From: Bacteroidota bacterium
GTDB taxonomy: Bacteria; Bacteroidota; Bacteroidia; Bacteroidales; FEN-979
NCBI GenBank assembly: GCA_007280875.1
Contig: QYQJ01000006.1
Location: 1 to 35,284 of the forward strand
Length of the DNA: 35,284 nt
Direction of reading: 5' to 3'
The notes under the pieces were generated by a model that had not been told where the DNA came from, made no database searches, and saw only the letters and a list, made by a program, of their open reading frames with translations. Shown here piece after piece: positions 4,542-28,792 of this stretch. Every line of letters starts with the position of its first letter. Within the stretch, counting starts at the first letter, position 1. Position numbers and translations under genes: made by a program.

Positions 4542-4570
4542 GAAATACGAAATTAGGAAAGTAGGAAATA

Positions 4571-4628
4571 AATCGAAAATCGAAAATCGAATTATTCGGA
4601 GATCACTTCGACCCTCGACCCTCGACCC
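4571..4628. repeat. Two adjacent heptamer tandem repeats: (TCGAAAA)n and (TCGACCC)n
   Basis: aatcgaaaatcgaaaatcga (4571-4590) and tcgaccctcgaccctcgaccc (4608-4628). Confidence 0.85.
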
Positions 4629-4641
4629 TGAACCTTCGCCC

Positions 4642-5976
4642 ATGACCCACAAACCTCCCCTCTCCTTCTGGCAGATCTGGAACATGAGTTTTGGCTTCCT
4701 CGGCATTCAGTTTGGCTGGGGGCTCCAGATGGCCAATATGAGCGCCATTTACGAGTACCTCGGCGCGCAACCCAACGAGATCCCGTTACTCTGGCTTGCT
4801 GCGCCGCTTACCGGACTGATCGTGCAACCTGTCATCGGGAACCTGAGTGATCATACCTGGAACCGTCTGGGCCGCAGGCGCCCCTATTTTCTGGTCGGAG
4901 CGATCCTTTCTTCGCTGGCCCTGATCTTCATGCCCAATTCTTCCGCACTCTGGATGGCGGCCGGGCTCCTCTGGATCCTGGATGCTTCGATCAACATTTC
5001 CATGGAACCTTTCCGGGCTTTCGTGGCCGACAAACTTCCCGAAAACCAGCGTGCCCGCGGATTTGCCATGCAGAGTATCTTTATCGGCCTGGGGGCGATC
5101 ATAGCCAGCGCCCTGCCCTGGCTTCTGACCAACCTCTTCGAAGTACAGGCCGGTTCAACCGGCGACAGCGCCATTCCCCTGACGGTAAAACTCTCCTTCT
5201 ATATCGGAGCAGCCGCCTTCGTCGGCGCGGTGCTCTGGACCATCGTCCGAACCAAGGAGTATCCCCCGGCAGATCTGGCTGCGTTTCAAGCACAAAAAGC
5301 GGCTAAAAAGAGTCTGACCCGGTTCTTTGCTGAGATTTTCCGGGATATTATTCATATGCCGGCTGTAATGCGGAAGCTGGCCTGGGTTCAGATCTTCACC
5401 TGGCTGGGACTTTTTTGCATGTGGCTCTACTTCCCGGTTGCAGTGGCCCGGAATGTCTTTGGAGCACCCGATGAAACCTCCCCGGTTTACCAGGAAGGGG
5501 TCGAATGGGCCGGTATCTGTTTTGCCATGTACTCGCTGGTGTGTTTTGCCTACGCCTTTCTCATCCCGGTCATTGCCCGGACGATCGGGATGCGGTGGAC
5601 GCACATCGTGAGCCTCGCCTGCGGAGCGGCCGGACTTATCTCGGTCATCCTGATCCATGAACCGTGGGTCCTGCTGCTTTCGATGACTGGTGTGGGTATT
5701 GCCTGGGCCAGTATTCTCTCGATGCCATATGCCATTCTCTCGGGGCACCTGCCTCCCGAGAAGACAGGAGTATACATGGGGATCTTCAACTTTTTCATCG
5801 TACTGCCGGAGATCGTTGCTTCGCTGGTCTTCGGATGGGTGATGCTGAACCTGCTGGATAACAACCGGCTGGCCGCGGTGGTGGCGGGGGGAGCCTGTTT
5901 GCTGATTGCGGCGGCGCTGATGCTGAGGGTGAAAGACGAGGAACGAACGACGTTAGACGTGAGACGTGAGACGTAA
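4642..5976 (+). CDS. MFS sugar transporter, SLC45/GPH-like (candidate maltose/maltodextrin importer)
   Basis: About 12 hydrophobic segments; FLGIQFGWGLQMANMSAIYEYLG, PLTGLIVQPVIGNLSDHTWNRLGRRRPYFLVG, DASINISMEPFRAFVAD. Confidence 0.82.
   Translation: MTHKPPLSFWQIWNMSFGFLGIQFGWGLQMANMSAIYEYLGAQPNEIPLLWLAAPLTGLIVQPVIGNLSDHTWNRLGRRRPYFLVGAILSSLALIFMPNSSALWMAAGLLWILDASINISMEPFRAFVADKLPENQRARGFAMQSIFIGLGAIIASALPWLLTNLFEVQAGSTGDSAIPLTVKLSFYIGAAAFVGAVLWTIVRTKEYPPADLAAFQAQKAAKKSLTRFFAEIFRDIIHMPAVMRKLAWVQIFTWLGLFCMWLYFPVAVARNVFGAPDETSPVYQEGVEWAGICFAMYSLVCFAYAFLIPVIARTIGMRWTHIVSLACGAAGLISVILIHEPWVLLLSMTGVGIAWASILSMPYAILSGHLPPEKTGVYMGIFNFFIVLPEIVASLVFGWVMLNLLDNNRLAAVVAGGACLLIAAALMLRVKDEERTTLDVRRET
5951..5974. 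repeat. GAGACGT-type heptamer repeat overlapping the MFS 3' end
   Basis: ttagacgtgagacgtgagacgt; encodes the last residues LDVRRET. Confidence 0.75.
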
Positions 5977-5989
5977 AAATATTTGTAAT

Positions 5990-6034
5990 CAATTTCCTAA
6001 TTTCCTAATTTCCTAATTTCGTATTTCGTATTTC
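5990..6034. repeat. TTCCTAAT octamer repeat followed by TTTCGTA heptamer repeat
   Basis: aatttcctaatttcctaatttcctaatttcgtatttcgtatttc in the MFS-malQ spacer. Confidence 0.85.
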
Positions 6035-6050
6035 TATATAACTATCCCCT

Positions 6051-7553
6051 ATGATTAACGATCGCGCCTCCGGCATCTTACTTCACCCCACTTCGCTTCC
6101 CGGGAACTATGGGATCGGGACCCTGGGAAAAGCAGCCTTTGACTGCATCGATTTTCTGGCACTGAGCAAGCAGCGGTACTGGCAGATCCTGCCTCTCGGT
6201 CCTACCGGGTATGCCGATTCACCCTACCAGTGCTTTTCGGCTCATGCTGGAAATCCAAATCTTATTGACCTGGAACTGCTGGTGGATGAAGGGCTGCTGC
6301 AGGCAAAAGACCTGGCAACGTTCCCTTCCTTCGGCGAGGGGCCGGTTCAGTTCGACGAAGTCCAGAATGCCCGGAAGCCCCTGTTGCAAAAAGCGTATGA
6401 ACAATTCAGCCGGCAGGCCGGTGAGACGGAAAAGCTCAAATACCGGAATTTCCTGAAGGAGCACTACAAATGGTTAAATGATTTTGCCCTCTTCATGGCG
6501 ATCAAAAACAGCCTGAAACTGAAACCGTGGCTGCAATGGGACCGTGACATCCGGCACCGCGAACCGGATGCCCTGAAGAAATTCCAGGATGAGCTGAAGG
6601 AGGAGACAGCCTACTATAAGTTTCTTCAGTATCTGTTCTTCAGGCAATGGACCAGGGTCAAAGCCTATGCTCACCGGAAGAAGCTCCGGATCATCGGTGA
6701 TATTCCCCTCTACGTGGCGCTCGACAGCGCCGATGCCTGGGCTAATTCCGGGCTGTTTGAATTTGATAAAGAGCTGAAACCTGTCCGGGTAGGGGGTGTG
6801 CCTCCCGACTATTTCTCCGAAACCGGTCAGCTCTGGGGGAATCCCCTCTTCCGCTGGACCGATCAGAAAGTGAATGTCTGCGCCTGGTGGAGAGAACGGA
6901 TCGCGACTAACCTATTTTTATTCGACATAGTCCGCATCGACCACTTCCGTGGATTTGCCGCTTACTGGGTTGTTCCGTATGGCGAAAAAACTGCTGTGAA
7001 CGGAAAATGGATCGACGGGCCGGGAAAGGAGTTCTTTGATGACATGCTGAACCATTTCGGCCAGCTTCCGATCATTGCAGAAGACCTCGGGGTGATCACC
7101 CCCGATGTGGAGGAGTTACGCGACTCCTATGGGTTTCCGGGGATGAAGATCCTGGAATTCGCCTTCGACTCGGAAGAGGCCAATGATTACATCCCGTATA
7201 ACTTTTCAAAGAACTGTCTGGTCTACACAGGAACACATGATAATGATACGGTACGGGGATGGTTTGCGTCACTGAAACCGGCTGACAAGGAGTTTCTGCT
7301 GGAGTATCTGAATACACCGGGGACCGATATCAACTGGGATTTGATCCGGCTGGCCTGGAGTTCCGTCGCCAATACGGCCATTGTCCCGATGCAGGATCTC
7401 ATCGGGTTGGATTCTTCCGGCAGGATGAATGTTCCCGGAACCACAACCAGTAACTGGCGCTGGCGGGCAAAATCGTCATATTTTACCCCGGAACTGGCGG
7501 AACGACTGGCTAAACTGACGATCCTCTACGGGCGAGCCACCCGGAAAAAATAA
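6051..7553 (+). CDS. malQ: 4-alpha-glucanotransferase (GH77, amylomaltase)
   Basis: RASGILLHPTSLPGNYGIGTLG, QILPLGPTGYADSPYQCFSAHAGNPNLIDLE, RIIGDIPLYVALDSADAW, VRIDHFRGFAAYW, PIIAEDLGVITPDVEELRD, YTGTHDNDTVRGW. Confidence 0.96.
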   Translation: MINDRASGILLHPTSLPGNYGIGTLGKAAFDCIDFLALSKQRYWQILPLGPTGYADSPYQCFSAHAGNPNLIDLELLVDEGLLQAKDLATFPSFGEGPVQFDEVQNARKPLLQKAYEQFSRQAGETEKLKYRNFLKEHYKWLNDFALFMAIKNSLKLKPWLQWDRDIRHREPDALKKFQDELKEETAYYKFLQYLFFRQWTRVKAYAHRKKLRIIGDIPLYVALDSADAWANSGLFEFDKELKPVRVGGVPPDYFSETGQLWGNPLFRWTDQKVNVCAWWRERIATNLFLFDIVRIDHFRGFAAYWVVPYGEKTAVNGKWIDGPGKEFFDDMLNHFGQLPIIAEDLGVITPDVEELRDSYGFPGMKILEFAFDSEEANDYIPYNFSKNCLVYTGTHDNDTVRGWFASLKPADKEFLLEYLNTPGTDINWDLIRLAWSSVANTAIVPMQDLIGLDSSGRMNVPGTTTSNWRWRAKSSYFTPELAERLAKLTILYGRATRKK

Positions 7554-7631
7554 ATCTGTGATCATCCGCAAAAATCAGTGTGATCTGTGTTCCATATTTT
7601 CTTAAATTCACGGCTCTAACGATAGACGAAA

Positions 7632-9482
7632 ATGCGCCCTCTTGTTATTCTGCTCACGTTCCTGATCCTGAGCCTGAACCTGCCTGCCCAGGAGAACCAG
7701 GAGCTGCGAATAGAACCCCCGTTCTGGTGGACCGGCTTCAACCATACCGAACTTCAGTTACTGGTGCACGGGAAAGCCATTTCCGCCACCTCCGTGCACA
7801 TCCGGTATCCGGGAGTTGAACTGGTCTCGGTCGATACGGTCCCAAATCCGAACTACCTCTTCATCAACATGAAGATCTCTCCGGAAACCCAACCCGGATC
7901 GTTCCCTATCCGCTTCATGAAAGAGAAAGCCGTGGTGGCCGAGGTGCGTTATGAACTCCTCCGGCGGAAAGATCCTTCCAACCGTTTTCAGGGTTTTGAT
8001 GCGTCGGATGTGATCTACCTGCTGATGCCCGACCGCTTTGCCAATGGAGATACCCTCAATGATAACCTCCCCGGAATGAGGCAACTTGCCGACCGGTCCA
8101 ATCCCGATGGACGGCATGGCGGAGATATCCGTGGGATTACAGACCACCTGGATTACATCATGGACCTGGGGGTAACGGCTTTATGGATCAATCCTTTACT
8201 GGAGAACAACCAGGAGATCTACTCCTATCACGGCTATTCCGCCACCGATTACTACCTGATCGATCCGCGCTTTGGAACCAATGAGGATTACCTGGAGCTA
8301 TCCGATAACATCCATCAACGCGGGATGAAACTGATCATGGACATGGTATTCAACCATTGCGGAAGCTTCCACTGGTGGATGGAAGACCTCCCGTCCCCCG
8401 ACTGGATCAACCAATGGCCAGAGTTCACCCGTTCCTCTTACCGGGGAGGTACCGTCAGCGACCCCTATGCAACCCCTTCCGACAGCATAAAATTCGTCAA
8501 GGGGTGGTTCGATAAAACCATGCCCGACCTGAACCAGCACAACCCTTTCCTGAAAAACTACCTGATCCAGAACAGCCTCTGGTGGATCGAATACGCCAGC
8601 CTGGATGGAATCCGCCAGGATACCCATCCTTACCCGGTCAAGGATATGATGGCTGAATGGGGAAAACGTGTACTGGATGAATACCCCGACTTTAACATTG
8701 TCGGGGAGTGCTGGTTGGCCTATCCTCCGGCAGTGGCTTACTGGCAAAAAGATGCAGGTGACCGGGACGGGTACAATTCCAATATCCCCTCAGTGTTTGA
8801 TTTTCCACTTTATGACGCGCTGAAGGTGGCCTTCAACGAAGCAGAGGGATGGAGTTCTGGAATCGTGAGGCTGTACGATGTGCTTTCCCAGGATTTCGTC
8901 TACCCCGATCCTTCAAACCTGGTTATTTTTGCCGACAACCACGATATCAACCGTTACCTGGACACCCAGGAAGACGACATCAGAAAACTGAAGATGGCGA
9001 TGGCCTTTATCCTCACCACCCGGGGAATCCCGCAGCTTTATTACGGAACGGAACTGCTGATGACCACCGGCGAGGATAAAGGGCACGGATCGATCCGGAA
9101 GGATGTGATGGGCGGATGGCCATCAGATCCCCGGAATACTTTCAGTATAGAGGGACGAACGCCGGAAGAGCAGGACATGTACACCTATCTCCGGACGATC
9201 CTCCGGTGGCGGCAAAACACACCGGTCATCCACACGGGACGACTGAGGCACTTCATCCCGCAGGACGGAGTCTACGTCTATTTCCGGTTCAATGAAACAG
9301 ACACGGTGATGGTGGTGATGAATAATAACGAGGAGGAGACGGTACTTGAAACCGGGAGGTTTAGTGAGTTCCTGAATCCGGGAACCACCGGCACGGAGAT
9401 CATCAGCGGGGTAAGCATCTATCCTCTGCGCAACCTCGTTATTCCTGGGAAAACAGCCATGATCATAGAACTTTCCCAATAG
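7632..9482 (+). CDS. Secreted GH13, SusA/neopullulanase or cyclomaltodextrinase-like
   Basis: Signal peptide; N-terminal RIEPPFWWTGFNHTELQLLVHG (cyclomaltodextrinase N-domain type); GH13 motifs DMVFNH, LDGIRQDTHPYP, NIVGECWL, FADNHDINR. Confidence 0.9.
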   Translation: MRPLVILLTFLILSLNLPAQENQELRIEPPFWWTGFNHTELQLLVHGKAISATSVHIRYPGVELVSVDTVPNPNYLFINMKISPETQPGSFPIRFMKEKAVVAEVRYELLRRKDPSNRFQGFDASDVIYLLMPDRFANGDTLNDNLPGMRQLADRSNPDGRHGGDIRGITDHLDYIMDLGVTALWINPLLENNQEIYSYHGYSATDYYLIDPRFGTNEDYLELSDNIHQRGMKLIMDMVFNHCGSFHWWMEDLPSPDWINQWPEFTRSSYRGGTVSDPYATPSDSIKFVKGWFDKTMPDLNQHNPFLKNYLIQNSLWWIEYASLDGIRQDTHPYPVKDMMAEWGKRVLDEYPDFNIVGECWLAYPPAVAYWQKDAGDRDGYNSNIPSVFDFPLYDALKVAFNEAEGWSSGIVRLYDVLSQDFVYPDPSNLVIFADNHDINRYLDTQEDDIRKLKMAMAFILTTRGIPQLYYGTELLMTTGEDKGHGSIRKDVMGGWPSDPRNTFSIEGRTPEEQDMYTYLRTILRWRQNTPVIHTGRLRHFIPQDGVYVYFRFNETDTVMVVMNNNEEETVLETGRFSEFLNPGTTGTEIISGVSIYPLRNLVIPGKTAMIIELSQ

Positions 9483-14844: not shown

Positions 14845-16212
14845 ATGAAAATAAAAAAGGAAACCGTTTTAATCAGTAGTGTAATTTTAGCAACTATGCT
14901 GTTTCCGCTGTTTTCCTGCAAACAAAAAGCGGTCACCCCCTTCGATCATCCCGAATGGAGCCGGAATGCCACTATCTATGAAGTGAACGTCCGGCAGTTC
15001 ACCCCCGAGGGGACCTTCCGGGCTTTTGAGGAGCATTTGCCCCGGCTTCAGCAGATGGGAGTGAAGATCCTCTGGCTGATGCCCATCAATCCGATTGGAG
15101 AGGAAAACCGGAAAGGGACCCTGGGCAGCTACTACGCCGTGAAAGATTACCTGGAAGTGAACCCCGCGTATGGCACGAAAAAGGATTTCCGCCATCTGGT
15201 AGAGAAGATCCACGAACTGGGCATGTATGTCATCATCGACTGGGTGGCCAACCATACCGCCTGGGACAATCCGCTTCTGGTGGAACATCCCGAATGGTAT
15301 CTGAAGGATTCGACGGGAGCTATTATTCCACCCGTTGCTGACTGGAGCGACGTGGCCGGTCTGGATTATTCCAATCCTGCATTGTGGGGCTACATGTCGG
15401 ATGCCTTACAGTACTGGGTCAGGGAGTTCAATATCGATGGGTACCGGTGTGATGTGGCCGGTATGCTTCCGGTCGGTTTCTGGAACCGTGCCGTCCCGGA
15501 AATTAAAAAACTCAAACCTATTTTCATGCTAGCCGAATGGGAGACACCTGATATGCACGACACCGCATTCGATGCCACTTACTCCTGGGACTTCTACCAC
15601 CTGATGAACGAGCTTGCAAAAGAGGAAAAACCACTCCGGGACATCGATACCTTACTAAAAAAGGAACGGAAGAGTTATCCCTCCCATGCATTCCGGATGC
15701 GGTTCACATCCAATCATGACGAGAACAGCTGGAACGGGACCGAGTATGAGCGACTGGGAGAAGCTGCGCAGGCATTTGCCTTACTGACCTTCACCTTTCC
15801 CGGGATCCCGCTGATCTATACCGGGCAGGAGTCGGCTATGAATAAACGTCTCTCGTTCTTTGACAAGGACACGGTTCCCTGGCTGGATTACCCGCTGGGA
15901 CCCTTCTATACCAGACTTGTAAAGCTGAAACTGGATCATCCTGTGCTGGATGCAGGCGAAACCGGGGGCACCTACCAGCGGGTGCACTCCACCAACGACT
16001 CAGCCGTACTGGCCTTTGTCAGGAAGAATCCCGAAGAGCAGATCCTGGTGGTACTGAACCTCTCGCCAAAAGAACAGGAGGTCGGACTGAAGGGAAAAGA
16101 CTTCTCCGGAGCGTATACGGAGATTTTCACGCAGGCCAATGTCACCCTTGGGAAAGGGAAAACACTGACCCTTGAACCATGGGGGTACAGGGTTTATGTG
16201 ATTTCCGATTGA
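14845..16212 (+). CDS. GH13 alpha-amylase-family lipoprotein (compact)
   Basis: MLFPLFSCKQK lipobox; ATIYEVNVRQFTPEGTF, DWVANHTAWDNPL, IDGYRCDVAGMLP, MLAEWETP, TSNHDENSW. Confidence 0.92.
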   Translation: MKIKKETVLISSVILATMLFPLFSCKQKAVTPFDHPEWSRNATIYEVNVRQFTPEGTFRAFEEHLPRLQQMGVKILWLMPINPIGEENRKGTLGSYYAVKDYLEVNPAYGTKKDFRHLVEKIHELGMYVIIDWVANHTAWDNPLLVEHPEWYLKDSTGAIIPPVADWSDVAGLDYSNPALWGYMSDALQYWVREFNIDGYRCDVAGMLPVGFWNRAVPEIKKLKPIFMLAEWETPDMHDTAFDATYSWDFYHLMNELAKEEKPLRDIDTLLKKERKSYPSHAFRMRFTSNHDENSWNGTEYERLGEAAQAFALLTFTFPGIPLIYTGQESAMNKRLSFFDKDTVPWLDYPLGPFYTRLVKLKLDHPVLDAGETGGTYQRVHSTNDSAVLAFVRKNPEEQILVVLNLSPKEQEVGLKGKDFSGAYTEIFTQANVTLGKGKTLTLEPWGYRVYVISD

Positions 16213-16333: not shown

Positions 16334-18175
16334 ATGAAAAAAACAGTACCACTGCTAATCATTCTGTGCATGGCCGGATGTGCTCCAAAACATAAACCGA
16401 CCCCGTTGAATGAGCCGCCTGCCTGGGCTAAGGATGCGGTCTGGTACCAGGTCTTCGTCGAACGGTTTCACAATGGTGACCCGTCAAATGATCCGACCCC
16501 GGCCACGATCAGCATTCCGCCTATGGGACAGCTTGCGCCAGCCGGATGGTCGGTTACCCCCTGGGGCCACGACTGGTATGCCAAGGAATCGTGGGCAGAA
16601 CGAACCGGGAAACCCTTTTACGACAACCTGCAGTACCGGCGGTACGGGGGCGACCTGCAGGGGGTACTGGACAAACTGGATTACCTGCAGGATCTGGGCA
16701 TCACGGCTATTTACCTGAATCCCATCAACGACGCTCCTTCGCTGCATAAATACGATGCCCGGAACTACCATCACGTGGATATCAATTTCGGGCCCGATCC
16801 GGAGGGAGATCTCCGGATCATGGAATCGGAAGATCCCGCCGATCCCTCCACCTGGCAGTGGACTTCGGCTGATAAGCTGTTTCTCAGGGTGGTGGAAGAA
16901 GCTCACAGACGCGGGATGCAGGTGATCATGGATTACTCGTGGAACCATACCGGGGTGCTCTTCTGGGCGTGGCAGGATATCCTGAAGAACCAGTCAAAAT
17001 CGAAGGTTAAAGAGTGGTATGAGATCCTTTCGTTCGATGACTCCACCACCGCCGTGAACGAGTTTACCTACAAAGGGTGGCTGGATATTAAAAACCTGCC
17101 CGAACTGAGAAAAGTGGATGTCGCGGCACCCCGTGAGAATGGTCGTCCCTACGAAGGGGACATAAATCCGGCTGCCAAAGCGCATATTTTTGATGTCACG
17201 CGCCGGTGGCTGGCTCCTGATGGTGATACCGCCAGAGGCATCGACGGGTTCCGCCTGGATGTGGCTGATCAGATCGGGCTGAAGTTCTGGCGAGACTACC
17301 GGAAGTTTGTCCGGTCGATCCAGCCGGAGGCTTACCTGGTGGGAGAGATCTGGTGGGAGGATTATCCCGAAACTCTGATGGATCCGGTCCCCTATGTGAA
17401 CGGTGATGTGTTTGACGCGGTGATGTTCTACCAGGTCTACCGGCCGGCACGGTATTTCTTTGCGAAAACCGGAACACCGATTGATGCAAAGCAGCTGAAG
17501 GACAGCCTCGAACTTCAGTGGAACCGGATGAAGCCTGCGACCCTGCATGCCATGATGAACGTCTCTTCAACACACGATGCCCCGAGACTACTGACCAGCT
17601 TCTACAATCCACACAAGTACAAATACCAGGCAAATCCGCGGGATAACGCGAAATTCAAAACCGGGAAGCCGGATGCAGAGACCTATCAACGGCTCCGGCT
17701 CTATCTGGTCCACCTCTTCACCATCCCTGGAGCTCCGCATATCTGGAATGGCGAAGAGATGGGCATGTGGGGAGCCGATGATCCCGATTGCCGGAAACCC
17801 CTCTGGTGGGAGGGTATGGCATTTGATCCCGAGACCCGGACCAATATCCGGAAAGGGAAAAAACTTTATGATTCCGTTGGCTTTGACAGGGAGCAGTTTG
17901 AATTCTATAAAAAGCTGATCGACATCCGGAAGAGTAATCCCGTTCTTGCCATCGGGCAAGTGGAGTTCCTGATCGCTGAGGGGAATAAACTGGGCTACCG
18001 GAGATATGACGGCCGGAACGAAATCCTGGTCCTGTTCAATCTTGAACCCCGCCCGGTGTCATTTGATCTACCTGGAAATACCGGCTATACTGACCTGCTT
18101 CATGGAGGGATCATATCCGGCGATTCTGTAGGGCTAAATCCCCTCAGTGCACTGGTATTAAAAAGGGAACACTAA
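16334..18175 (+). CDS. GH13 alpha-amylase-family lipoprotein
   Basis: CMAGCAPKHK lipobox; AVWYQVFVERFHNGDPSND, YGGDLQGVLDKLDYLQDLGITAIYLNPI, MDYSWNHTG, IDGFRLDVADQIG, LVGEIWWEDYPETLM, STHDAPR. Confidence 0.93.
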   Translation: MKKTVPLLIILCMAGCAPKHKPTPLNEPPAWAKDAVWYQVFVERFHNGDPSNDPTPATISIPPMGQLAPAGWSVTPWGHDWYAKESWAERTGKPFYDNLQYRRYGGDLQGVLDKLDYLQDLGITAIYLNPINDAPSLHKYDARNYHHVDINFGPDPEGDLRIMESEDPADPSTWQWTSADKLFLRVVEEAHRRGMQVIMDYSWNHTGVLFWAWQDILKNQSKSKVKEWYEILSFDDSTTAVNEFTYKGWLDIKNLPELRKVDVAAPRENGRPYEGDINPAAKAHIFDVTRRWLAPDGDTARGIDGFRLDVADQIGLKFWRDYRKFVRSIQPEAYLVGEIWWEDYPETLMDPVPYVNGDVFDAVMFYQVYRPARYFFAKTGTPIDAKQLKDSLELQWNRMKPATLHAMMNVSSTHDAPRLLTSFYNPHKYKYQANPRDNAKFKTGKPDAETYQRLRLYLVHLFTIPGAPHIWNGEEMGMWGADDPDCRKPLWWEGMAFDPETRTNIRKGKKLYDSVGFDREQFEFYKKLIDIRKSNPVLAIGQVEFLIAEGNKLGYRRYDGRNEILVLFNLEPRPVSFDLPGNTGYTDLLHGGIISGDSVGLNPLSALVLKREH

Positions 18176-18279: not shown

Positions 18280-19320
18280 TTAATTCGCCTTCAGTTTGTA
18301 CTTGTAGATCGGTTTATTCAGCTCAAGCGTGATGGTGTAGTTACCAGCGGCAGGTACCGGGATATTGGCGCCATCCTGCTGCAGGATTCCATTGCCCAGG
18401 TTGTCTCCGTAATTAAGATCCCAGGCATCGTTGGCGCGGAACTTGAACTCGTCGGCTGTCAGATCCATAGTAACCGTCCAGTGCTGGGTCTCTACATCAT
18501 AGGTCATCGGGGTAGAGGCGTCCCAGCCTCCGGGTGTCGCGCTTCCTATAACACCCCATTCTGTTCGGAGGGCAGAATGCGTCAGTGCAATGAGATCGGC
18601 ATTCAGCTTGTAATAACCGGCGACCGCGGCGATAATGTTAGCGCCACCGGGGTCCAGGGTGCCATCGGCGTTATCATCCCCCCAGTTCTCATCCCAGCTG
18701 CCTTTGGCAAACTTATATTCGGTGTTATCGTCTGCGAACCAGAGGAATCCTTCATACAGGTCGTTCGACTTCAGAGATGCGATGGCGGTATTGGAGTCGG
18801 CCGGATTCCATCCCTGGTAGCTTCCGGGTACGTTGAGGATCGGATAGACCACCGGGACATAATAGGGTGTGATGGTTTGCTTGATCACTGCAGAGTAGAG
18901 TGGATTTACATTGGGGTTGACAGCCGTCTTCACCCTGAACTCCAGCGCAATGGGTTCCGGAACTGCCGGATCGGGAAGATAGGGTAACAGCTTGTTGTTA
19001 AAGTCACTGGTCACAATGGTCAGCTCTTTTGCATGGGTAACTGCTCCAACGGCCACGGCATCAGCGAAGTTATTCCCCTGTTTGTCCATCTGCAGGGTGT
19101 AGGTTACCACCAGTTGAGGACCATAGTTGGCTGTATCCCATTGAAAAATGATCGGGACATTTTGATTCTCAAGCAGAAGAACGATCACAGCGCCATCCTG
19201 CAACTTCAACACCGCTGCATTCGGCTTGGAGCTGAGTTCGGTTTTGTCCACCTTCTTACATCCTGCAAGAGTGAACAAACCCACAATTATCAGAAAAAAT
19301 GTTATCTTTTTCATAGACAT
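18280..19320 (-). CDS. susE: SusE/SusF-like outer-membrane starch-binding lipoprotein
   Basis: Lipobox LFTLAGCKK; SusE-like N-domain; two modules PGSYQGWNP...GDDNADGTL and WGVIGSATPGGWD...FKFRANDAWDLNYGD. Confidence 0.88.
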   Translation of the reverse strand: MSMKKITFFLIIVGLFTLAGCKKVDKTELSSKPNAAVLKLQDGAVIVLLLENQNVPIIFQWDTANYGPQLVVTYTLQMDKQGNNFADAVAVGAVTHAKELTIVTSDFNNKLLPYLPDPAVPEPIALEFRVKTAVNPNVNPLYSAVIKQTITPYYVPVVYPILNVPGSYQGWNPADSNTAIASLKSNDLYEGFLWFADDNTEYKFAKGSWDENWGDDNADGTLDPGGANIIAAVAGYYKLNADLIALTHSALRTEWGVIGSATPGGWDASTPMTYDVETQHWTVTMDLTADEFKFRANDAWDLNYGDNLGNGILQQDGANIPVPAAGNYTITLELNKPIYKYKLKAN

Positions 19321-19332
19321 CGGTTTTACAGG

Positions 19333-21531
19333 TTAATATCCAGGATTTTGTTTCAGGTTTGGATTGGCTGAAACATCGGAAGCCGGGAGCGGGAAGATGT
19401 TGTAGATGGAACTTGTTGAGCTACCTGCCTGCGTTCCGCCTTTCCATTGCCATATATAGTCACCTCCCGTAAATTTACCATACCTGACCAGGTCGGTCCG
19501 GCGCGTAGCTTCCCAGTAAAGTTCGCGGGCACGCTCATCCAGGATGAAGTCTAGCGTGAGATCAGCCTGTGTGATATTGCCTAATTCATCTCCATAGGCC
19601 CGTGTTCTCACGTCATTGACATATTGCAATGCCTGGGCTTCAGAGCCTCCGCCACCCCGCAGTACGGCTTCAGCGTACATGAGGTATACATCGGCCAACC
19701 GGAAGAGGATGAAGTCGTTATCTACAAAGGTCTGATCCGAACCCGGCTGACCCGTACTGGTCACGTTTTTGAATTTGGCAATGGCATATCCGTCGGTAAA
19801 CGTACCTATATCATTGATATCCAGCGACTGACCATCGGTCCAGAACATCGCCCGCTTATCGTAGCTGTTCCTGACAACGGAATAGGTATAATCAGGGATA
19901 CCCAGTTTCATGGTGATCACATAGGTTCCGGCTTCCGGAATGGCTATGTTGGCGCCATTCTGCTCCAAAATCCCGTTTGCGCCGTCGTCGCCGTAGTTGA
20001 GATCCCAGCTATCGTTTGCACGGAACTTGATCTCCCCTACAGTCAGGTCCAGGGTGGCCACCCATACTCCGCCAGTGGCGTCGTAATCCATATTCTGGTC
20101 ACTATCCCAACCCCCAGCTGTGGCTGAGCCAATCACGCCCCAGGTTGTGTTCATCTTGGTGTAGGTGAGGTTGTTGAGATCCACGTTTACCTTGTAATAG
20201 CCTGCGTCGGCAGCGACAATATTCGCTCCGTTCTGTTCCAGTGTCCCGTCTCCGTTATCGTCTCCGTAATTCAGATCCCAGTTTGGATTCACACAGAACT
20301 TGAACTCCGTATTGGCGTCGGGGAAGTATAGATAGCCTTCAAAATTCCCGTCATTCAACGCCGAAGCCAAAACAGTGGTGGTGTTGGTCGGATCCCATCC
20401 CTGGTAAGAGCCGGGACAGTACAACAACGTGTAGGCCGCTGCACTCTTCGGGGGAATGGGAGAATGGTAGAGACCGTTCTTGATTTCCGGGTAGAACTTC
20501 TGAACGAGCGACTTGGTTGTCCGGGTTCCTCCCCATCCGCCACCTACGCCGAAATCGGCCGGTACCATACTTCCGCCAATCGCAGCATGAATGATGAAGG
20601 TGGTACCACCCCAGGTCTGGGTGCGCAGCCCATCAAAATTGATCGTGAAAATAGACTCGGGGGTATTGTGGTTATCAGCCAGGAAAAGATTCTGGTACTC
20701 GGGATCCAGGGAATAACCCGCATTGATGATCTTCACGCAGTTGTTCACGCAATCGGTATACCGGTTGGAGCCTTTGTAGACCTCGGCATTCAGGTACAGT
20801 TTTGCAAGAAGCGCCCATACCGCTGCTTTATCGGCCCGGCCGTACTCATTTTGCCGGGCATCGATCAGTAATGGTTCGATGGCGTTCAACTCTGCGTCGA
20901 GGTAATCAAACAGGCTTGCCCTCATGATTTGCTGAGGAAAGAATTTTCCTACCGGGTCGGCATCGGTCACAAACGGAACATTGCCGAAGAGATCGAGAGC
21001 GTGGTAATAACTCAGCGCCCGCAGGAACCTGGCTTCTGCCCGGTAATGGGCAATATCGGTCAGGATCGGACCGGTAATGCCGCGTTCGCTAAGCTTTTCA
21101 GGAGTCGTTTCCCGGATGAATTCATTGCACAGACAGATCTGGTAATAGATCCGGTAGTACATAGCAGAGATAAAGACATCACTGGAACCCCAGTTCTGGG
21201 AGTGAAAGTCCTTAATGGTCTGGTCGTTCCAGCCGATGACCGCTTCATCGGTGCTTAGCTCCTGGTGATACCAGTAGCCACGGAGGTACTCCCCGAACCC
21301 TTCATCGATACCAGCGATATCCGGATTCCCTGCCGGTCCCTGCTGTCCCGAAAGGGCCAATCCGGCATACAACTTGGCAAGCACCAGGATGTAGTTATTG
21401 GCGTCTTTGTACACGTCCTCTGACGTCAATTCAAGTGGATTTAATGGCTTGGTATTCAGATCCTTGACGCAGGAACCAAGAACCATTGCTAAAGCCATAA
21501 ACAGGATTGCTATTTTATAATTTCGTTTCAT
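19333..21531 (-). CDS. susD: SusD-family nutrient-binding lipoprotein with inserted SusE/F-type modules
   Basis: MVLGSCVKDLNTKPLNPLELTSEDVYKDANNY...; SusD core on both sides; C-terminus FPLPASDVSANPNLKQNPGY. Insert at about residues 367-553. Confidence 0.9.
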   Translation of the reverse strand: MKRNYKIAILFMALAMVLGSCVKDLNTKPLNPLELTSEDVYKDANNYILVLAKLYAGLALSGQQGPAGNPDIAGIDEGFGEYLRGYWYHQELSTDEAVIGWNDQTIKDFHSQNWGSSDVFISAMYYRIYYQICLCNEFIRETTPEKLSERGITGPILTDIAHYRAEARFLRALSYYHALDLFGNVPFVTDADPVGKFFPQQIMRASLFDYLDAELNAIEPLLIDARQNEYGRADKAAVWALLAKLYLNAEVYKGSNRYTDCVNNCVKIINAGYSLDPEYQNLFLADNHNTPESIFTINFDGLRTQTWGGTTFIIHAAIGGSMVPADFGVGGGWGGTRTTKSLVQKFYPEIKNGLYHSPIPPKSAAAYTLLYCPGSYQGWDPTNTTTVLASALNDGNFEGYLYFPDANTEFKFCVNPNWDLNYGDDNGDGTLEQNGANIVAADAGYYKVNVDLNNLTYTKMNTTWGVIGSATAGGWDSDQNMDYDATGGVWVATLDLTVGEIKFRANDSWDLNYGDDGANGILEQNGANIAIPEAGTYVITMKLGIPDYTYSVVRNSYDKRAMFWTDGQSLDINDIGTFTDGYAIAKFKNVTSTGQPGSDQTFVDNDFILFRLADVYLMYAEAVLRGGGGSEAQALQYVNDVRTRAYGDELGNITQADLTLDFILDERARELYWEATRRTDLVRYGKFTGGDYIWQWKGGTQAGSSTSSIYNIFPLPASDVSANPNLKQNPGY
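19873..20433 (-). other. Two SusE/SusF-type starch-binding modules inserted in the SusD ORF
   Basis: YTLLYCPGSYQGWDPTNTTT...WDLNYGDDNGDGTLEQNGANI...WGVIGSATAGGWD...IKFRANDSWDLNYGDDGANGILEQNGANI...YTYSVV, closely matching the SusE C-terminal half. Confidence 0.85.
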
Positions 21532-21550: not shown

Positions 21551-24529
21551 TTAAAAGGAAAGATTTACGCCCAAAACAAATGCCCTGGAACGGGGATACA
21601 TATTGTTGTCGATCCCTCTCGTAGTTCCCAGGTTGACTTCCGGGTCAATACCCTTGTACTGGGTTATGGTGAACAGGTTGTTCACGGTGAAGGAGAGGCG
21701 CAGATGAGCCGTATTCTTCGCCAGGTTCCCGAAGTCATATCCCAGGGTCAGGTAATCGAGTTTGAAGAAAGAGGCGTCCTGGACATAATAATCCGAAAGA
21801 TACTGCTGATTGACGAAATTGATGTCGTACACATCGGTAGTCACGTTACCGAGATAAGGGCCTTCCGGACGGAAGAGGTTGTTGTAAACCCCCCGGTTGG
21901 CCTGCACGTTGTTGTAAACATAATTTCCGATCATCGCATGGCCTGCTGCAGCCAGACTCCATTTCTTATAACGGAGCGAAGTGGAGATCCCTAAGGTAAA
22001 ATCGGGACTCGGATTTTTGTAGTGGTACCGGTCGGCATCCGTGATCTTTCCATCGTTGTTCCGGTCTACATACAACCCTTCTATCGGGTTTCCGGCATCA
22101 TCATAAACCTGCTGATAAACGAAGAAATCGAACGGAGCATATCCTACGCTGAGAATCTGCACCGTATTCCCGACACCGCCGCTGATCCCTCCGATGAAAT
22201 ATCCGAGGTAGTTTGGATCCTCGTACAGGGTCAGTTTCGTGATCTCATTGTGATTGTAAGCCGTGTTGAAACCAATCTCCCACTTCCAGTCGTTGGTCAC
22301 CACCGGTTTGGCGTTGATAGCAAACTCCACCCCGTTGTTTACCATGTCACCCACGTTGGTCCAGATGTAGTTCTGGAGGTTTGTCCCTGCGGGGACAGGT
22401 ACATAGTTCAACAGGTCGGAGGTATATCGCAGATAGTAATCGATGCTACCGTAGATCCTGTCTTCCAGGAATCCAAAATCAAGGCCGGCATTCCAGGTAG
22501 TAGTTTTCTCCCATTTGATACCGGCATCATAGCCGTTTGGACGCAGCGTAACATAATAAACATTTCCGAATTCGTACATCGCAAACTGGTTGCTTTCAAC
22601 ATAAAGCGGCAGGGAGGGGTACCAGTTATCACCGATATCCTGCTGACCGGTCTGGCCAAAGCCCAGTCTGAGTTTCAGCTGGGAGACCACTTTTGAATCC
22701 CGCAGGAACTTCTCATCGTTGATTTTCCATGCCAGCGCCAACGACGGGAAGAGGCCCCAGCGGTCGTCTTTGGCAAATTTTGACGAACCGTCATTACGTA
22801 AGGTAAAGGTCAGCAGATAGCGATCCATCAGTGTATAATTGAACCGTCCGTAAAAAGAGAGCAGGACATACTCCTTTTTTATGGGTAACCATTCGTAGTA
22901 AGAGGTATCGTGCGGGATATTGTTATTGTACGTGTTTGCTTCAACAAAAAAGCGCTGGTAGGAATATCCTGCCATGACATCAAATTTGCTCTTGATCGAT
23001 TTGACATCCTTGACGTAGTTGAGATAAAAATCGAGCAGCCGGTTATCCTTTTTCTGGTCGTATTTGGTATCCCATCCTTTCCGGAAGAAAGCCCAGGAAG
23101 CATATTCCGGTATCACACGGGTGCCGCTGGTGGATATGTAATCCAGACCGAGGTTCAGGACTGCCCGCAAATCCGGGAAGAAATGGAGTTTATAATCAAT
23201 TTGTACATTCCCCAGAAACCGGTTTGCAACTGACTTATCCTTGCGGAGATTCAGAAGGGCAAGTGGATTTGTAGTTGCCTGATCAACCGGAAGTGTACCT
23301 CCGGGTTGCAGCCAGGCCCAGTAACCTCCGAATTTGTTATCTGCCATGACCGGTTTTGTAGGGTCAAATGCAATGGCAGCGCCAATCGCACCCTGATCGG
23401 CAAAATAGTTTGATTCACGGAAATATTTTGCATTTACCGTTACTTTCAGATAGTTGTCAAAAAAAGCGGGACTCAGGTTTAGCCCTGCCGAGAACCTCTG
23501 AAAGTTATCAGTTTTTATTGTTCCATCCTGGAACAGATACCCGACAGAGACCCGGTAGGGCATCGTGCTTATGGAGCCGGTAAAGGCCAGGTTATGATCG
23601 GTCATAATGGCCGACCGGTAGATCTCCTTCTGCCAGTTGGTGCTCTGGGTTCCCAGCAGGGTGTCCACATCAGGCCGGTTGGGATAACGCTCCTTCACCA
23701 GTGCTCTGAATTCATCCCCGTCAAGCACCGAATAAATCTTTGGCACGGTGGAAAGACCTATTTTCCCTGAATACTCCAAACCGAATTTCTTGGATCCGGG
23801 GACTCCTTTCTTGGTAGTGATGATGATAACCCCGTTGGAAGCCCGTGAACCATAGATGGCTGTTGCCGAAGCATCCTTCAGTACCGTATAGCTCTCAATC
23901 TCATCCGGATTAATCATGCTGAGGGTCCCACGGGCCCCCGATGTAGCTGTATTATCGATAGGAACCCCGTCGATGACCATAAGGGGATCGTTGGAGGCAT
24001 GCAGTGAAGAGCCGCCACGGATCCGGATAGAAGCATTTCCACCGGGCGCACCTCCAAGGGTGGTTACAGTAACACCAGGGATTTTCCCGATGATCTGCTC
24101 CTGAGGAGAAATGACATTCCCCCGGTTGAAACTTTGATCATCAATAACAGATACAGAACCGGTTGCATCCTGCTTCTTGACCGTACCATAGCCGATCACA
24201 ACCAATTCGTTCAGGAATTTTACGGCTGTTTTCAAGCCGATCACAAGGTTGGTCTGGTCTGTAATCGTTATCTCCTGGGGCTCATACCCGACAAAAGAGA
24301 AGACCAGCACATCGCCAGGCTTTGCCTGCAGCGAAAAATTCCCACTGATATCCGTGGCTACACCAACGGTTGATCCTTTGATCATCACCGTTACGCCCGG
24401 CAGAGAACTTCCATCTGCTGCATCCGTTACAATCCCTTTAACCGTCATTTCTTGCCCGTAAAGAAGGGATACGGACAGGAAGGAAAAGAGAAGAAACAGA
24501 TTACGTAACCATAGTACACTTTTCTTCAT
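21551..24529 (-). CDS. susC: SusC/RagA-family TonB-linked outer-membrane transporter
   Basis: Carboxypeptidase-regulatory-like N-domain (GIVTDAADGSSLPGVTVMIKGS); LVVIGYGTVKKQDATGSV; plug IRIRGGSSLHASNDPLMVIDGVP, TVLKDASATAIYGSRASNGVIIITTKKG; C-terminal beta strand RAFVLGVNLSF. Confidence 0.97.
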   Translation of the reverse strand: MKKSVLWLRNLFLLFSFLSVSLLYGQEMTVKGIVTDAADGSSLPGVTVMIKGSTVGVATDISGNFSLQAKPGDVLVFSFVGYEPQEITITDQTNLVIGLKTAVKFLNELVVIGYGTVKKQDATGSVSVIDDQSFNRGNVISPQEQIIGKIPGVTVTTLGGAPGGNASIRIRGGSSLHASNDPLMVIDGVPIDNTATSGARGTLSMINPDEIESYTVLKDASATAIYGSRASNGVIIITTKKGVPGSKKFGLEYSGKIGLSTVPKIYSVLDGDEFRALVKERYPNRPDVDTLLGTQSTNWQKEIYRSAIMTDHNLAFTGSISTMPYRVSVGYLFQDGTIKTDNFQRFSAGLNLSPAFFDNYLKVTVNAKYFRESNYFADQGAIGAAIAFDPTKPVMADNKFGGYWAWLQPGGTLPVDQATTNPLALLNLRKDKSVANRFLGNVQIDYKLHFFPDLRAVLNLGLDYISTSGTRVIPEYASWAFFRKGWDTKYDQKKDNRLLDFYLNYVKDVKSIKSKFDVMAGYSYQRFFVEANTYNNNIPHDTSYYEWLPIKKEYVLLSFYGRFNYTLMDRYLLTFTLRNDGSSKFAKDDRWGLFPSLALAWKINDEKFLRDSKVVSQLKLRLGFGQTGQQDIGDNWYPSLPLYVESNQFAMYEFGNVYYVTLRPNGYDAGIKWEKTTTWNAGLDFGFLEDRIYGSIDYYLRYTSDLLNYVPVPAGTNLQNYIWTNVGDMVNNGVEFAINAKPVVTNDWKWEIGFNTAYNHNEITKLTLYEDPNYLGYFIGGISGGVGNTVQILSVGYAPFDFFVYQQVYDDAGNPIEGLYVDRNNDGKITDADRYHYKNPSPDFTLGISTSLRYKKWSLAAAGHAMIGNYVYNNVQANRGVYNNLFRPEGPYLGNVTTDVYDINFVNQQYLSDYYVQDASFFKLDYLTLGYDFGNLAKNTAHLRLSFTVNNLFTITQYKGIDPEVNLGTTRGIDNNMYPRSRAFVLGVNLSF

Positions 24530-24697: not shown

Positions 24698-25864
24698 TTA
24701 AAATGATGCCGGCATTTGCAAATATTCTATTGAAATCAGCGTACGACCCTGGAAATCAAACAGGGAGCAGTTATCCCAGGCCGATCCGGTGCCCCAATTA
24801 TCCTTCATGGAAGAGGTAATCCAGGCCGGTTCCCAGTACATACAACCGGTTGCGCCGCCATCCAGTACAGCCCGGGTCAATGCGTTCAGGTAGTTCATCT
24901 GTCCTTCAGGGGTTAACGGATACCCGGCTATACTGTCGGAAGGTCCGAAGATATTGGGGTACTGATCGGCATCCTCTCCGGTCCAGGGGCAGGCTGTTTC
25001 CACTACCATCACCCGTTTGCCAAAGCTGGTCCTGATCTCTCTGGTTATGGCGGTGATCTGGGAGAGCTGTGAAATAGTTGACCATTTTGCATAATGGGAG
25101 ATCCCCAGGATATCGAAATCAGTGACCTTCCCTGCATGGATCACCTGATCGATCCACCACCGGGAGTTTTGAAATTGCGCCACATGCAGGATGATCAGGG
25201 GTTTTATCTTCGCGTTGACGGAGAAATCCCGGACCGCCTTGATACCGGCGTTAAGTAACGTACCAAAAGGGATCCAGTTATCGTTTTCGACCTTCCCAAC
25301 CGGATAAAGCATCCCGCTGTTGGTTTCATTCCCTATCTGCACCATTTCTGGTGTAAGCCCTTTCATTGCCAGGTGCTGCAGGACAGCCAGGGTGTAATTA
25401 TAAACGGAATCGCAAAGGGTTTCCAGTGCCAGCCCGTTCCAGGCTTCCGGAGTTTCCTGATGGGAAGGATCGGCCCAGGTGTCGGAATAGTGTATATCCA
25501 GGTTCACCGCCATCCCCAGCGCTTTTGCCCGGGTGATGGTCTTCTCCACATCCGCCAGGTCACTGTACAGCGCTCCGCCGGTCAGTTCCCCGACCCATTG
25601 CGGATTATGCCACAAACGGACCCGAACCGTGTTGGCTCCATGATCATGAAAAATCCGGAAGGGATCCCGCACCTCTCCCGAGTCGGAATATACTCCACCA
25701 AAATCCTCAATCTCATTTACATAGGATAGATCCACCCCTTTGCTGAAAGTTTTCCAGGAAGGCGTCTCGGGTTGGATCTGATCAGGCTCCTGCGGGTTGC
25801 TATCCTTGCAGGAGGACAATACCAGAAAAACTCCGGCAAGAACTATACGTATCAACCGTTCCAT
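24698..25864 (-). CDS. GH53 arabinogalactan endo-beta-1,4-galactanase lipoprotein
   Basis: Start placed at MERLIRIVLAGVFLVLSSCKDS (25864); GVDLSYVNEIEDFGGVY, NTVRVRLWHNPQ, DIHYSDTWADPSHQETPEAW, VQIGNETNSGMLYP (acid/base), VMVVETACPWTGED (nucleophile). Confidence 0.93.
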   Translation of the reverse strand: MERLIRIVLAGVFLVLSSCKDSNPQEPDQIQPETPSWKTFSKGVDLSYVNEIEDFGGVYSDSGEVRDPFRIFHDHGANTVRVRLWHNPQWVGELTGGALYSDLADVEKTITRAKALGMAVNLDIHYSDTWADPSHQETPEAWNGLALETLCDSVYNYTLAVLQHLAMKGLTPEMVQIGNETNSGMLYPVGKVENDNWIPFGTLLNAGIKAVRDFSVNAKIKPLIILHVAQFQNSRWWIDQVIHAGKVTDFDILGISHYAKWSTISQLSQITAITREIRTSFGKRVMVVETACPWTGEDADQYPNIFGPSDSIAGYPLTPEGQMNYLNALTRAVLDGGATGCMYWEPAWITSSMKDNWGTGSAWDNCSLFDFQGRTLISIEYLQMPASF

Positions 25865-25883
25865 AGTAATCAGGATATCCGTA

Positions 25884-25914
25884 CGAAAATAGGAATAAAA
25901 CTGCTTGCTGTCAA
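25884..25914 (-). promoter_or_regulatory. Candidate promoter for GH53 gene (-33 TTG, -7 TATTTTCG)
   Basis: TTG-N20-TATTTTCG on the minus strand; one mismatch to TAnnTTTG. Confidence 0.35.
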
Positions 25915-25932
25915 CGAATCTGAAGTTTTTTT

Positions 25933-25940
25933 TACCTTTG
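25933..25940 (+). promoter_or_regulatory. Candidate -7 box TACCTTTG for the T9SS GH13 gene
   Basis: TAnnTTTG match 20 nt before ATG 25961, divergent to the GH53 promoter. Confidence 0.45.
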
Positions 25941-25960
25941 GAGAAACCATCTGAAATTCC

Positions 25961-28792
25961 ATGAACAAACTTGTCCTGCAATTTACTGCTCTGTTGTTGC
26001 TGATCCTGTCAGCCGGATTCTCTCCGGCACAGGTTGTGGTAACCGAACCTGAATTTCCGACCGATCTTGATTCCTGCGTTGTATTCTTTGATGCTACCCA
26101 GGGAAATGGCGGACTGGCCGATGTCCCTCCGCCCCTCTATGCGCACACAGGAGTCATTACGAACCTCAGCACCAGCCCCACTGACTGGAAGTATGTGGTC
26201 GCTGCCTGGAATGAAAACATACTTAAAGCGCAGCTTATCCCCCTGGGAGATAATCTCTGGGAACTCAGGATAATCCCTTCGATCCGTGAATATTATGGGG
26301 TTCCGGCAGGGGAAGTGATCCAGCAGCTGGCCTTTGTGTTTCGTAACGCCGACGGGTCCCGGTCCGGCCGGAATGAGGATGGGAGTGACATCTTCGCAGA
26401 TGTCTATCCGGCAACGCTGAGCGTGAATATCATCCTTCCTGATCAAAAAGAACTGCTACTGCTTCCCGGCGATTCCATCCCTGTACTGGCCAAAAGCCCC
26501 CTGGCCGACTCCCTTCTCCTATACAGAAATGACACCCTGCTGAAATCGGTCGCCGGTACTGTGATCTCCGATACCCTTCCGGCTACAACCAGCTCGTTCT
26601 GGACCGAAGAGTGGATCAGGATTGTGGCAAAAAACGATACCGGCTCTGTTGCCGACTCCTTTTCTTACCGGGTGATCCCCCCTCCACCCGTAGCGGAGCT
26701 TCCGGCAGGAGTCATCGACGGAATCAACTATGTTGATCCGGAAACAGCCATTCTCTCGCTGTATGCCCCGGAGAAGTCATACTGCTTTGCCATCGGCGAT
26801 TTTACCAACTGGAAAGCAGACTCTCTTTTTTACATGAACCTGACGCCGGATGGAACCCGTTACTGGATCCGGTTGAACAACCTGACGCCACTCCAGGAGT
26901 ACCGGTTCCAGTATTTCGTTGACGGTACATTACGGGTGGGCGATCCTTACGCCGATAAGGTGAGCGATCCAAACGATATCTATATCACATCCGCTACCTA
27001 TCCCAACCTGATCCCCTACCCCACCGGACTGACTACCGGCATTGCGACCATTCTGCAAACAGGTCAGAAACCTTATCCATGGGATACGGCTTCGTTTGAT
27101 CCACCGGATGTAAGCGACCTGGTGATTTATGAACTGTTGCTCCGTGACTTTACGGCCGCCCACACCTTCAACTCCCTGGCAGATACCCTGGACTACCTCT
27201 CCCGGCTGGGAGTGAATGCCATTGAACTGATGCCGATCATGGAGTTTGAAGGGAACAGCTCGTGGGGGTATAATCCCGATTTCTCCTATGCAGTTGATAA
27301 ATATTACGGCCCGAAAAACACCTTCAAACAACTGGTTGATGCAGCTCACGAAAAAGGAATTGCTGTTATTCTCGACATTGTGTGCAACCACCAGTTCGGC
27401 CAGTCCCCACTGGTCATGTTATACTGGGATCCGATATTCCAGCGACCGGCTGCCAACAACCCCTGGTTCAACCAGATACCAAAACACCCCTTCAATGTAG
27501 GCTATGATTTCAACCATGAAAGCGGGGAGACGCGACAGTATATGGACCGGCTGATCCGGTACTGGCTGGAGGAGTATCATGTGGACGGTTACCGGTTCGA
27601 CCTATCCAAAGGATTCACCCAAAAGGATTCTTACCCCAATAATGTTTCACTCTGGGGCCAGTACGATGCCTCCCGGATCGCAATCCTGAACCATTACGAC
27701 TCCGTGATCCGGTCGGTGAACCCCCTTGCATACAACATCCTCGAGCATTTCGCCGATAACAGCGAGGAGAAGGTGCTGGCTGCCTCAGGCATGATGCTCT
27801 GGGGAAACATGACCGGGCCTTACGCTGAGGGTGCCATGGGCTGGAACCAGAGCGGTAAATCCGACTTCTCCTGGGCTTCTTACCAGGCACGCGGATGGGC
27901 CTCACCGCATTTGGTCGCCTATATGGAGAGTCACGATGAAGAACGGATGATGTTCAAGAACATCTCTTACGGCAATGCCACCCTTCCGCCATACAATGTC
28001 AAAGATACCTTCACAGCCCTCAAACGGGTGGAACTGGCAGCCAATTTTTACTTTACCATTCCGGGGCCGAAAATGATCTGGGAGTTCGGGGAGCTGGGGT
28101 ATGATTTCTCGATCAATTACCCCACCGGTACGGCCGAATCCCGTCTGGCGCCCAAACCCATCCGATGGGATTATTACACCGAATGGAGAAGACGGTATCT
28201 GTACAATGTCTTTTCTTCCCTGATTGCCCTGAAAAAGGAGGAGCCTGCTTTTGTCACAGATGATTTTACGCTGCATGTCGCTGCCTCCATGAAATCCGTC
28301 ATCCTCCGGCATGCGGACATGGATGTGGTGGTTCTGGGAAATTTTGATGTAGAGGAAAACGGGATCATTCCAAATTTTACAAAACCGGGAATCTGGTATG
28401 AATACTGGACCGGGGATTCCCTCTCGGTATCCGATCCCGCTGACCCCCTGCAGCTTCAACCGGGTGAATACCGGCTGTACACTACAAAAAAGTTTGTAAA
28501 ACCGCCTTTTACAGGGATCCGGGATCCGGGATCCGGCAACCTGCCCGAACCCCCGGCCGTGTTGTTTTATCCAAATCCGACATCGGGAAGGATCACCATC
28601 GAATCACAGGAAAAAGAGTTGGATGTCACCATCGTGGAGCCGGGGGGACGTACCGTCCTGTATAAGCACCGGGCCGGGACCGGGACCGGGATCAGTACAC
28701 TCGATATCAGCCGGCTCTCACCGGGTATCTATTTCATCCGGTTTGAAGCACCGGGGAAGAAGCCTATAGTGGAGAAGATCATCAAGTACTGA
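25961..28792 (+). CDS. Secreted multimodular GH13 with T9SS C-terminal sorting domain
   Basis: Signal peptide; CBM48/E-set (CFAIGDFTNWKAD); GH13 motifs DIVCNHQFGQSP, VDGYRFDLSKGF, YNILEHFAD, MESHDEERMMF; C-terminal LFYPNPTSGRITIES...LSPGIYFIRFEAPGKKPIVEKIIKY. Confidence 0.9.
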   Translation: MNKLVLQFTALLLLILSAGFSPAQVVVTEPEFPTDLDSCVVFFDATQGNGGLADVPPPLYAHTGVITNLSTSPTDWKYVVAAWNENILKAQLIPLGDNLWELRIIPSIREYYGVPAGEVIQQLAFVFRNADGSRSGRNEDGSDIFADVYPATLSVNIILPDQKELLLLPGDSIPVLAKSPLADSLLLYRNDTLLKSVAGTVISDTLPATTSSFWTEEWIRIVAKNDTGSVADSFSYRVIPPPPVAELPAGVIDGINYVDPETAILSLYAPEKSYCFAIGDFTNWKADSLFYMNLTPDGTRYWIRLNNLTPLQEYRFQYFVDGTLRVGDPYADKVSDPNDIYITSATYPNLIPYPTGLTTGIATILQTGQKPYPWDTASFDPPDVSDLVIYELLLRDFTAAHTFNSLADTLDYLSRLGVNAIELMPIMEFEGNSSWGYNPDFSYAVDKYYGPKNTFKQLVDAAHEKGIAVILDIVCNHQFGQSPLVMLYWDPIFQRPAANNPWFNQIPKHPFNVGYDFNHESGETRQYMDRLIRYWLEEYHVDGYRFDLSKGFTQKDSYPNNVSLWGQYDASRIAILNHYDSVIRSVNPLAYNILEHFADNSEEKVLAASGMMLWGNMTGPYAEGAMGWNQSGKSDFSWASYQARGWASPHLVAYMESHDEERMMFKNISYGNATLPPYNVKDTFTALKRVELAANFYFTIPGPKMIWEFGELGYDFSINYPTGTAESRLAPKPIRWDYYTEWRRRYLYNVFSSLIALKKEEPAFVTDDFTLHVAASMKSVILRHADMDVVVLGNFDVEENGIIPNFTKPGIWYEYWTGDSLSVSDPADPLQLQPGEYRLYTTKKFVKPPFTGIRDPGSGNLPEPPAVLFYPNPTSGRITIESQEKELDVTIVEPGGRTVLYKHRAGTGTGISTLDISRLSPGIYFIRFEAPGKKPIVEKIIKY
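28514..28536. repeat. In-CDS heptamer repeat GGGATCC x3.3
   Basis: gggatccgggatccgggatccgg in the linker before the T9SS domain. Confidence 0.85.

Follow-up and report, generated by a model that had tools for sequence, protein, structure and literature searches.

Two starch-binding modules of the SusE/SusF type inserted in a SusD protein: likely starch-catching arms on the lid of SusC

The SusD protein of the locus analysed here carries two modules of the SusE/SusF type in the middle of its chain, and from its sequence and a structural model it is likely to be a lid of SusC that catches starch with arms of its own. The window, by which we mean the whole analysed stretch of 35,284 nucleotides from a Bacteroidota bacterium, corresponds to contig C152 of a genome assembly in 232 contigs that is 88% complete. 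Here, susD (19333-21531, minus strand) is encoded directly after susC, and the 732-aa product is a lipoprotein by sequence, with a lipobox of the LGSC type and an invariant C21. Pfam analysis of this single open reading frame led to PF07980 (SusD_RagB, 138.9 bits with a gathering score of 23.1) and PF14322 (SusD-like_3, 36.0 bits with 27) as well as PF16411 (SusF_SusE, 60.6 bits with 27.5) and PF22058 (X25_BaPul_like, 33.3 bits with 27). Among 21 aligned relatives, PF07980 and PF14322 were matched in all 21 and PF16411 in 20. The N-terminal SusE domain PF14292 was absent from the SusD chain in the Pfam search and present in the next gene, so that SusD carries SusE modules and is no SusE itself. 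Similarly, its score of 430 bits for NCBIfam NF033071 (SusD sensu stricto), below the curated cut-off of 725, indicates a relative of that SusD rather than exactly that protein.

Alignment to the solved SusDs 3jys and 3ck7 resulted in two matching blocks with the insert between them; for 3jys, these were aa 39-346 and aa 557-732. The N-terminal core (aa 1-346; 20494-21531, minus strand), assigned by PF14322, PF07980 and the 3jys/3ck7 alignment, comprises the lipoprotein signal with C21, a helical TPR-type region and the starch-site residues, and the C-terminal core (aa 558-732; 19336-19860, minus strand) was assigned by PF07980 and the 3jys alignment. The whole inserted segment (aa 347-557; 19861-20493, minus strand), delimited by segment lengths in 183 SusDs and by the junctions in 148, consists of a variable linker and two modules and begins 14 residues past W333, the counterpart of W320 in SusD of Bacteroides thetaiotaomicron. 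Module 1 (aa 367-460; 20152-20433, minus strand) is an X25_BaPul-like beta-sandwich according to PF22058, and module 2 (aa 461-556; 19864-20151, minus strand) a SusF_SusE beta-sandwich according to PF16411. A preliminary description of this DNA had already placed two SusE/SusF-type modules inside the 732-aa SusD, which the Pfam gathering scores and the alignment blocks confirm, and the coordinates given there for aa 367-553 (19873-20433) are exact. As a refinement, the stretch that does not belong to SusD, variable linker included, extends over about aa 347-557, and by Pfam the first module is X25-like and not SusF_SusE. Minus the inserted modules, the protein is, judged by its sequence, an ordinary starch SusD.

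The gene content identifies the locus as a starch PUL. SusD is accompanied by its partner SusC, a TonB-dependent transporter of 992 aa (21551-24529, minus strand; Plug, CarbopepD_reg_2 and TonB barrel), and by the SusE lipoprotein of 346 aa (18280-19320, minus strand), in which Pfam found the PF14292 N-domain followed by an X25 and a SusF_SusE module. As expected from the preliminary description, these are the modules of the SusD insert in identical order, with about 56-57% identity to it. Six GH13 genes are present at the locus, one with CBM48, one coding for a cyclomaltodextrinase and one with a SusG_C domain, together with GH77 and sugar MFS transporter genes. They include the alpha-amylase family protein with SusG_C, likely the surface amylase (14845-16212, plus strand), a further alpha-amylase family enzyme (16334-18175, plus strand) and a GH13 protein with a type IX secretion tail (25961-28792, plus strand). 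In addition, a GH53 gene (endo-beta-galactanase family; 24698-25981) was observed among these starch genes; it shares the strand of susC and lies immediately upstream of it.

AlphaFold2 with 148 homologues predicted the whole SusD chain with a mean pLDDT of 94.6 and a pTM of 0.85, superseding a first run with 21 sequences (core pLDDT 64). The model is a SusD fold with the insert as two beta-sandwiches, with pLDDT mostly 95-98 in module 1 and mostly 90-98 in module 2, and thus the modules are indeed predicted to fold, as had been considered before. In Foldseek the best PDB matches of the model, with TM scores given by target length, were 3jys (0.90) and B. thetaiotaomicron SusD with maltoheptaose (3ck9; 0.84-0.85); SusF (4fe9) was among the structural matches of the earlier model. 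A single-sequence search of the PDB with the insert alone led to no match, and profiles were needed to find its relatives, with module 1 matching SusF 4fe9 and module 2 matching BT3088 SGBPdex.

The residues that bind starch in SusD structures, D73, R81, W98, Y296 and W320 of the B. thetaiotaomicron protein, correspond to D76, R84, W101, W307 and W333 here, and its N101 is replaced by D103. In 51 two-module SusDs, D76, R84, W101, D103 and W333 were kept in all or all but one, and core position 307 was always aromatic (W/Y/F). The predicted starch site of module 1 (W379, K411, W418) was kept in about 42 of the 51, and for that of module 2 (W475, K502, (R504), W509) the residues W475, K502 and W509 were found in 45-47. 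The K-7-W spacing and the paired tryptophans of the modules match the solved maltotriose site of Sca5 X25 (PMC9112005). About eight Saprospirales-type SusDs have lost the module-1 site residues, so that not every arm would be able to bind in the usual way; module 1 without its W/K/W residues was seen in L224, L279 and other SusDs from Saprospirales and Chitinophagales.

We were interested how widely this architecture is spread, and the segment between the two SusD blocks was cut out in 183 SusDs. Two modules were present at the site in 69 of them and a short linker of 0-20 aa, typically KF-PDETGD-DxRAMF or similar, in 95. A single module was found in 16, nine being X25-like (Balneolaceae where named) and seven SusF_SusE-like (Flavobacteriia and one Saprospiraceae), and three modules in one, an 859-aa SusD from a Prolixibacteraceae MAG (L234:4450-7026), whose third module groups with other SusE-type modules and not most closely with the second. 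Two 613-aa SusDs of a flavobacterial group (L317:3817-5655 and L318:3486-5324) contain an unrelated, unrecognised insert of 84-85 aa at the same site. Carriers of two modules belong to Bacteroidales, Marinilabiliales and Saprospirales and include one cultured isolate, Neolewinella aurantiaca SSH13. Among 44 genomes of the window's family, a full-length insert-bearing SusD was detected in 20 (the window's genome counted) and a close insert-less SusD in three. About 20 of 395 genomes drawn from the order, from many families, had an insert-bearing SusD, and a scan of named genomes found the insert in Lentimicrobiaceae, Prolixibacteraceae, Saprospiraceae and Lewinellaceae. In most loci read, the gene order was SusC-SusD-SusE, and the site residues and the fold persist across orders at about 50-70% identity. 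To the question of the preliminary description whether the insert is native to the subfamily, the answer is divided: it is native to a broad SusD lineage, yet close relatives without it exist, and it is thus a genuine insertion that comes and goes.

Module number varies in SusD and in SusE, and no simple pattern was found between them. In nine insert-bearing loci (L116, L119-L122, L124, L128, L137 and L140) the C-terminal part of SusE is different or diverged and not the usual pair. Pairs of X25 and SusF_SusE type also occur within other large proteins (L188, L189, L190, L191 and L192), some of which have Fib_succ_major domains or a type IX secretion tail domain. A same-genus contig (G001 contig C299:3006-3254) encodes only the first 83 aa of SusD, 90% identical, at an apparent contig end.

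A tree of 81 SusD cores without the insert led to five changes of the insert label, three of them forced by well-supported branches, and in a tree of 148 proteins the insert was gained or lost at least 13 times. The module trees were built from about 94 columns; in them, the initial collection of 36 two-module inserts from Bacteroidales formed one clade (97/97) apart from the SusE modules, broken only by three long-branch rows. A single origin of the cassette within this set, with later losses or exchanges, is therefore most likely. L144-L146, three insert-less SusDs of the window's own family, are nested inside insert-bearing relatives; since the linker at the junctions of L145 and L146 is also shorter than in typical insert-less SusDs, their sequences suggest a secondary loss.

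The insert of the window is closer to 13 SusEs from other loci than to its own SusE, which ranks 14th of 84, and insert and own SusE were reciprocally best matches in only 4 of 43 loci. A local transfer or duplication from the adjacent susE, as put forward in the preliminary description, therefore could not be upheld for an insert that is common to 69 sampled SusDs in several orders. A recent copy of this susE into susD is contradicted by the insert clade (97/97) and by the rank of the own SusE. The general idea of SusE modules moving into susD is supported, but not for the window's locus in particular; the modules probably go back in the end to a SusE-type protein. An assembly chimera, which had also been considered, is refuted by the recurrence of the architecture in dozens of assemblies and in N. 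aurantiaca SSH13. Of the other loci, only L205 from a Bacteroidales MAG (SusD 4501-6702, SusE 6715-7779) gave a clear sign of recent local copying. Its insert resembles the SusE of that locus most (66%, against 55% for the next one) and is apparently a separate or converted copy, from recent local copying or gene conversion.

A single origin of the two-module inserts was not rejected on module 2 (p 0.425). A single origin for all inserted modules is ruled out for the Balneolaceae-type single X25 inserts, as joining them with the two-module inserts was rejected by the AU test (p 0.001), and only marginally so for the flavobacterial single inserts (p 0.041), several of which fall among flavobacterial SusE modules (98/94). 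From these trees, the two-module cassette is probably ancient, coming from a SusE-type protein once for most carriers, and the single modules in Balneolaceae and Flavobacteriia are apparently separate arrivals from local SusE relatives.

As evolution has loaded the same loop with modules more than once, starch is probably caught in part by the lid itself. In the proposed mechanism, the loop shortly after W333 has been replaced by the tandem of two SusE/SusF-type starch-binding modules, and the protein would still fold as the lid of SusC. The arms would project clear of SusC, capture alpha-glucan on the outer side of the transporter and keep it next to the binding site of SusD, to which it would be passed. 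A single chain could then achieve capture and delivery into SusC, which would not be left to a separate SusE alone. The cassette would have come anciently from a SusE-type protein and then been lost or exchanged between susD genes. A more specific version is possible but rather doubtful: the module pair might close on a helical alpha-glucan like the X25 pair of Ruminococcus bromii, hand the chain to the adjoining SusD site and drive lid closure on SusC by binding, with selection having built this several times from SusE modules in the same loop.

An explanation that we regard as unlikely is that the inserted modules serve mainly for assembly, docking SusD to SusE, SusC or an amylase or stabilizing the utilisome, with starch binding being secondary. 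The homology to the modules of the neighbouring SusE, the Saprospirales members that keep module 1 without its site residues, and the stable SusCD-SGBP-GH complexes known for levan and dextran (PMC7618045) would fit, whereas the retention of the site residues in most lineages, the insert-bearing loci with other or diverged SusE modules (L116, L119-L122, L124 and L128) and the rarity of mutual best matches between insert and own SusE (4 of 43 loci) argue against it. Less probable still is a recurrent, selectively near-neutral insertion in a permissive loop with no dedicated function. It would account for an insert gained or lost at least 13 times on the core tree and for the clean short linker left by the apparent secondary loss in the window's family (L145, L146), yet fold and site residues are kept at about 50-70% identity across orders, and the modules are nearly always of alpha-glucan-binding types (the 84-aa insert of L317 and L318 being the exception) in loci of the starch SusCDE type. 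Finally, it is highly improbable that the window shows an assembly chimera or modules newly copied from the neighbouring susE, even though the next gene has this module pair in matching order and L205 looks like such a copy, as 69 two-module SusDs from many assemblies and one isolate, the single insert clade and the 14th rank of the own SusE speak against it.

SusD lids and surface glycan-binding proteins are usually treated as separate lipoproteins; with starch-catching arms on the lid, both roles would be united in one chain, repeatedly in evolution and each time at a loop that is a near neighbour of the starch site in the sequence. How glycans reach the transporter mouth is debated between a stable utilisome and a dynamic assembly (PMC7618045), and related SusDs with 0, 1, 2 or 3 modules make the glycan hand-over directly comparable by experiment.

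SusD, SusE, SusF and X25 modules are all known already. No description of a CBM-bearing SusD was found in the literature searched, which covered few subscription journals or bioRxiv preprints, and starch-binding modules inside SusD are apparently an undescribed combination, although such absence is not proof. Nor was an experimental study of binding, transport or structure found for any SusD with such an insert. SusD of B. thetaiotaomicron (3ck7-3ckc) and the B. vulgatus protein 3jys resemble the window SusD in core fold, lipoprotein nature and SusC partner, but are without inserted modules, the flanks in 3jys being joined by a short loop. SusE and SusF (4fe9) share the X25-like and SusF_SusE module families and the aromatic/lysine site pattern with the insert; their modules, however, are C-terminal in a separate lipoprotein behind a spacer domain and not inside the SusC lid. 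The tandem X25 proteins Sas20d2 and Sca5X25-2 of R. bromii show the same W...K-7-W pattern (PMC9112005). The solved maltotriose site of Sca5X25-2 consists of W620, K654 and W661, the X25 pair forms one site common to two modules with clamshell-like closing and no binding singly, and Sas20d2 binds maltoheptaose with a Kd near 0.6 uM (PMC9112005). Unlike the insert in the SusC lid, they belong to a Gram-positive amylosome and not to a transporter. Alpha-glucan SusDs of North Sea Flavobacteriia, looped or open, likewise show loop variation close to the site where SusD binds alpha-glucan; this loop is about 17 aa long, and the passages considered mention no inserted binding module (PMC11093988). 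In the amylase SusG, CBM58 is inserted in domain B (cited in PMC11267923), a binding module within another Sus surface protein and thus a precedent for such insertions, differing from the window SusD in that the host is an enzyme and the module family is another.
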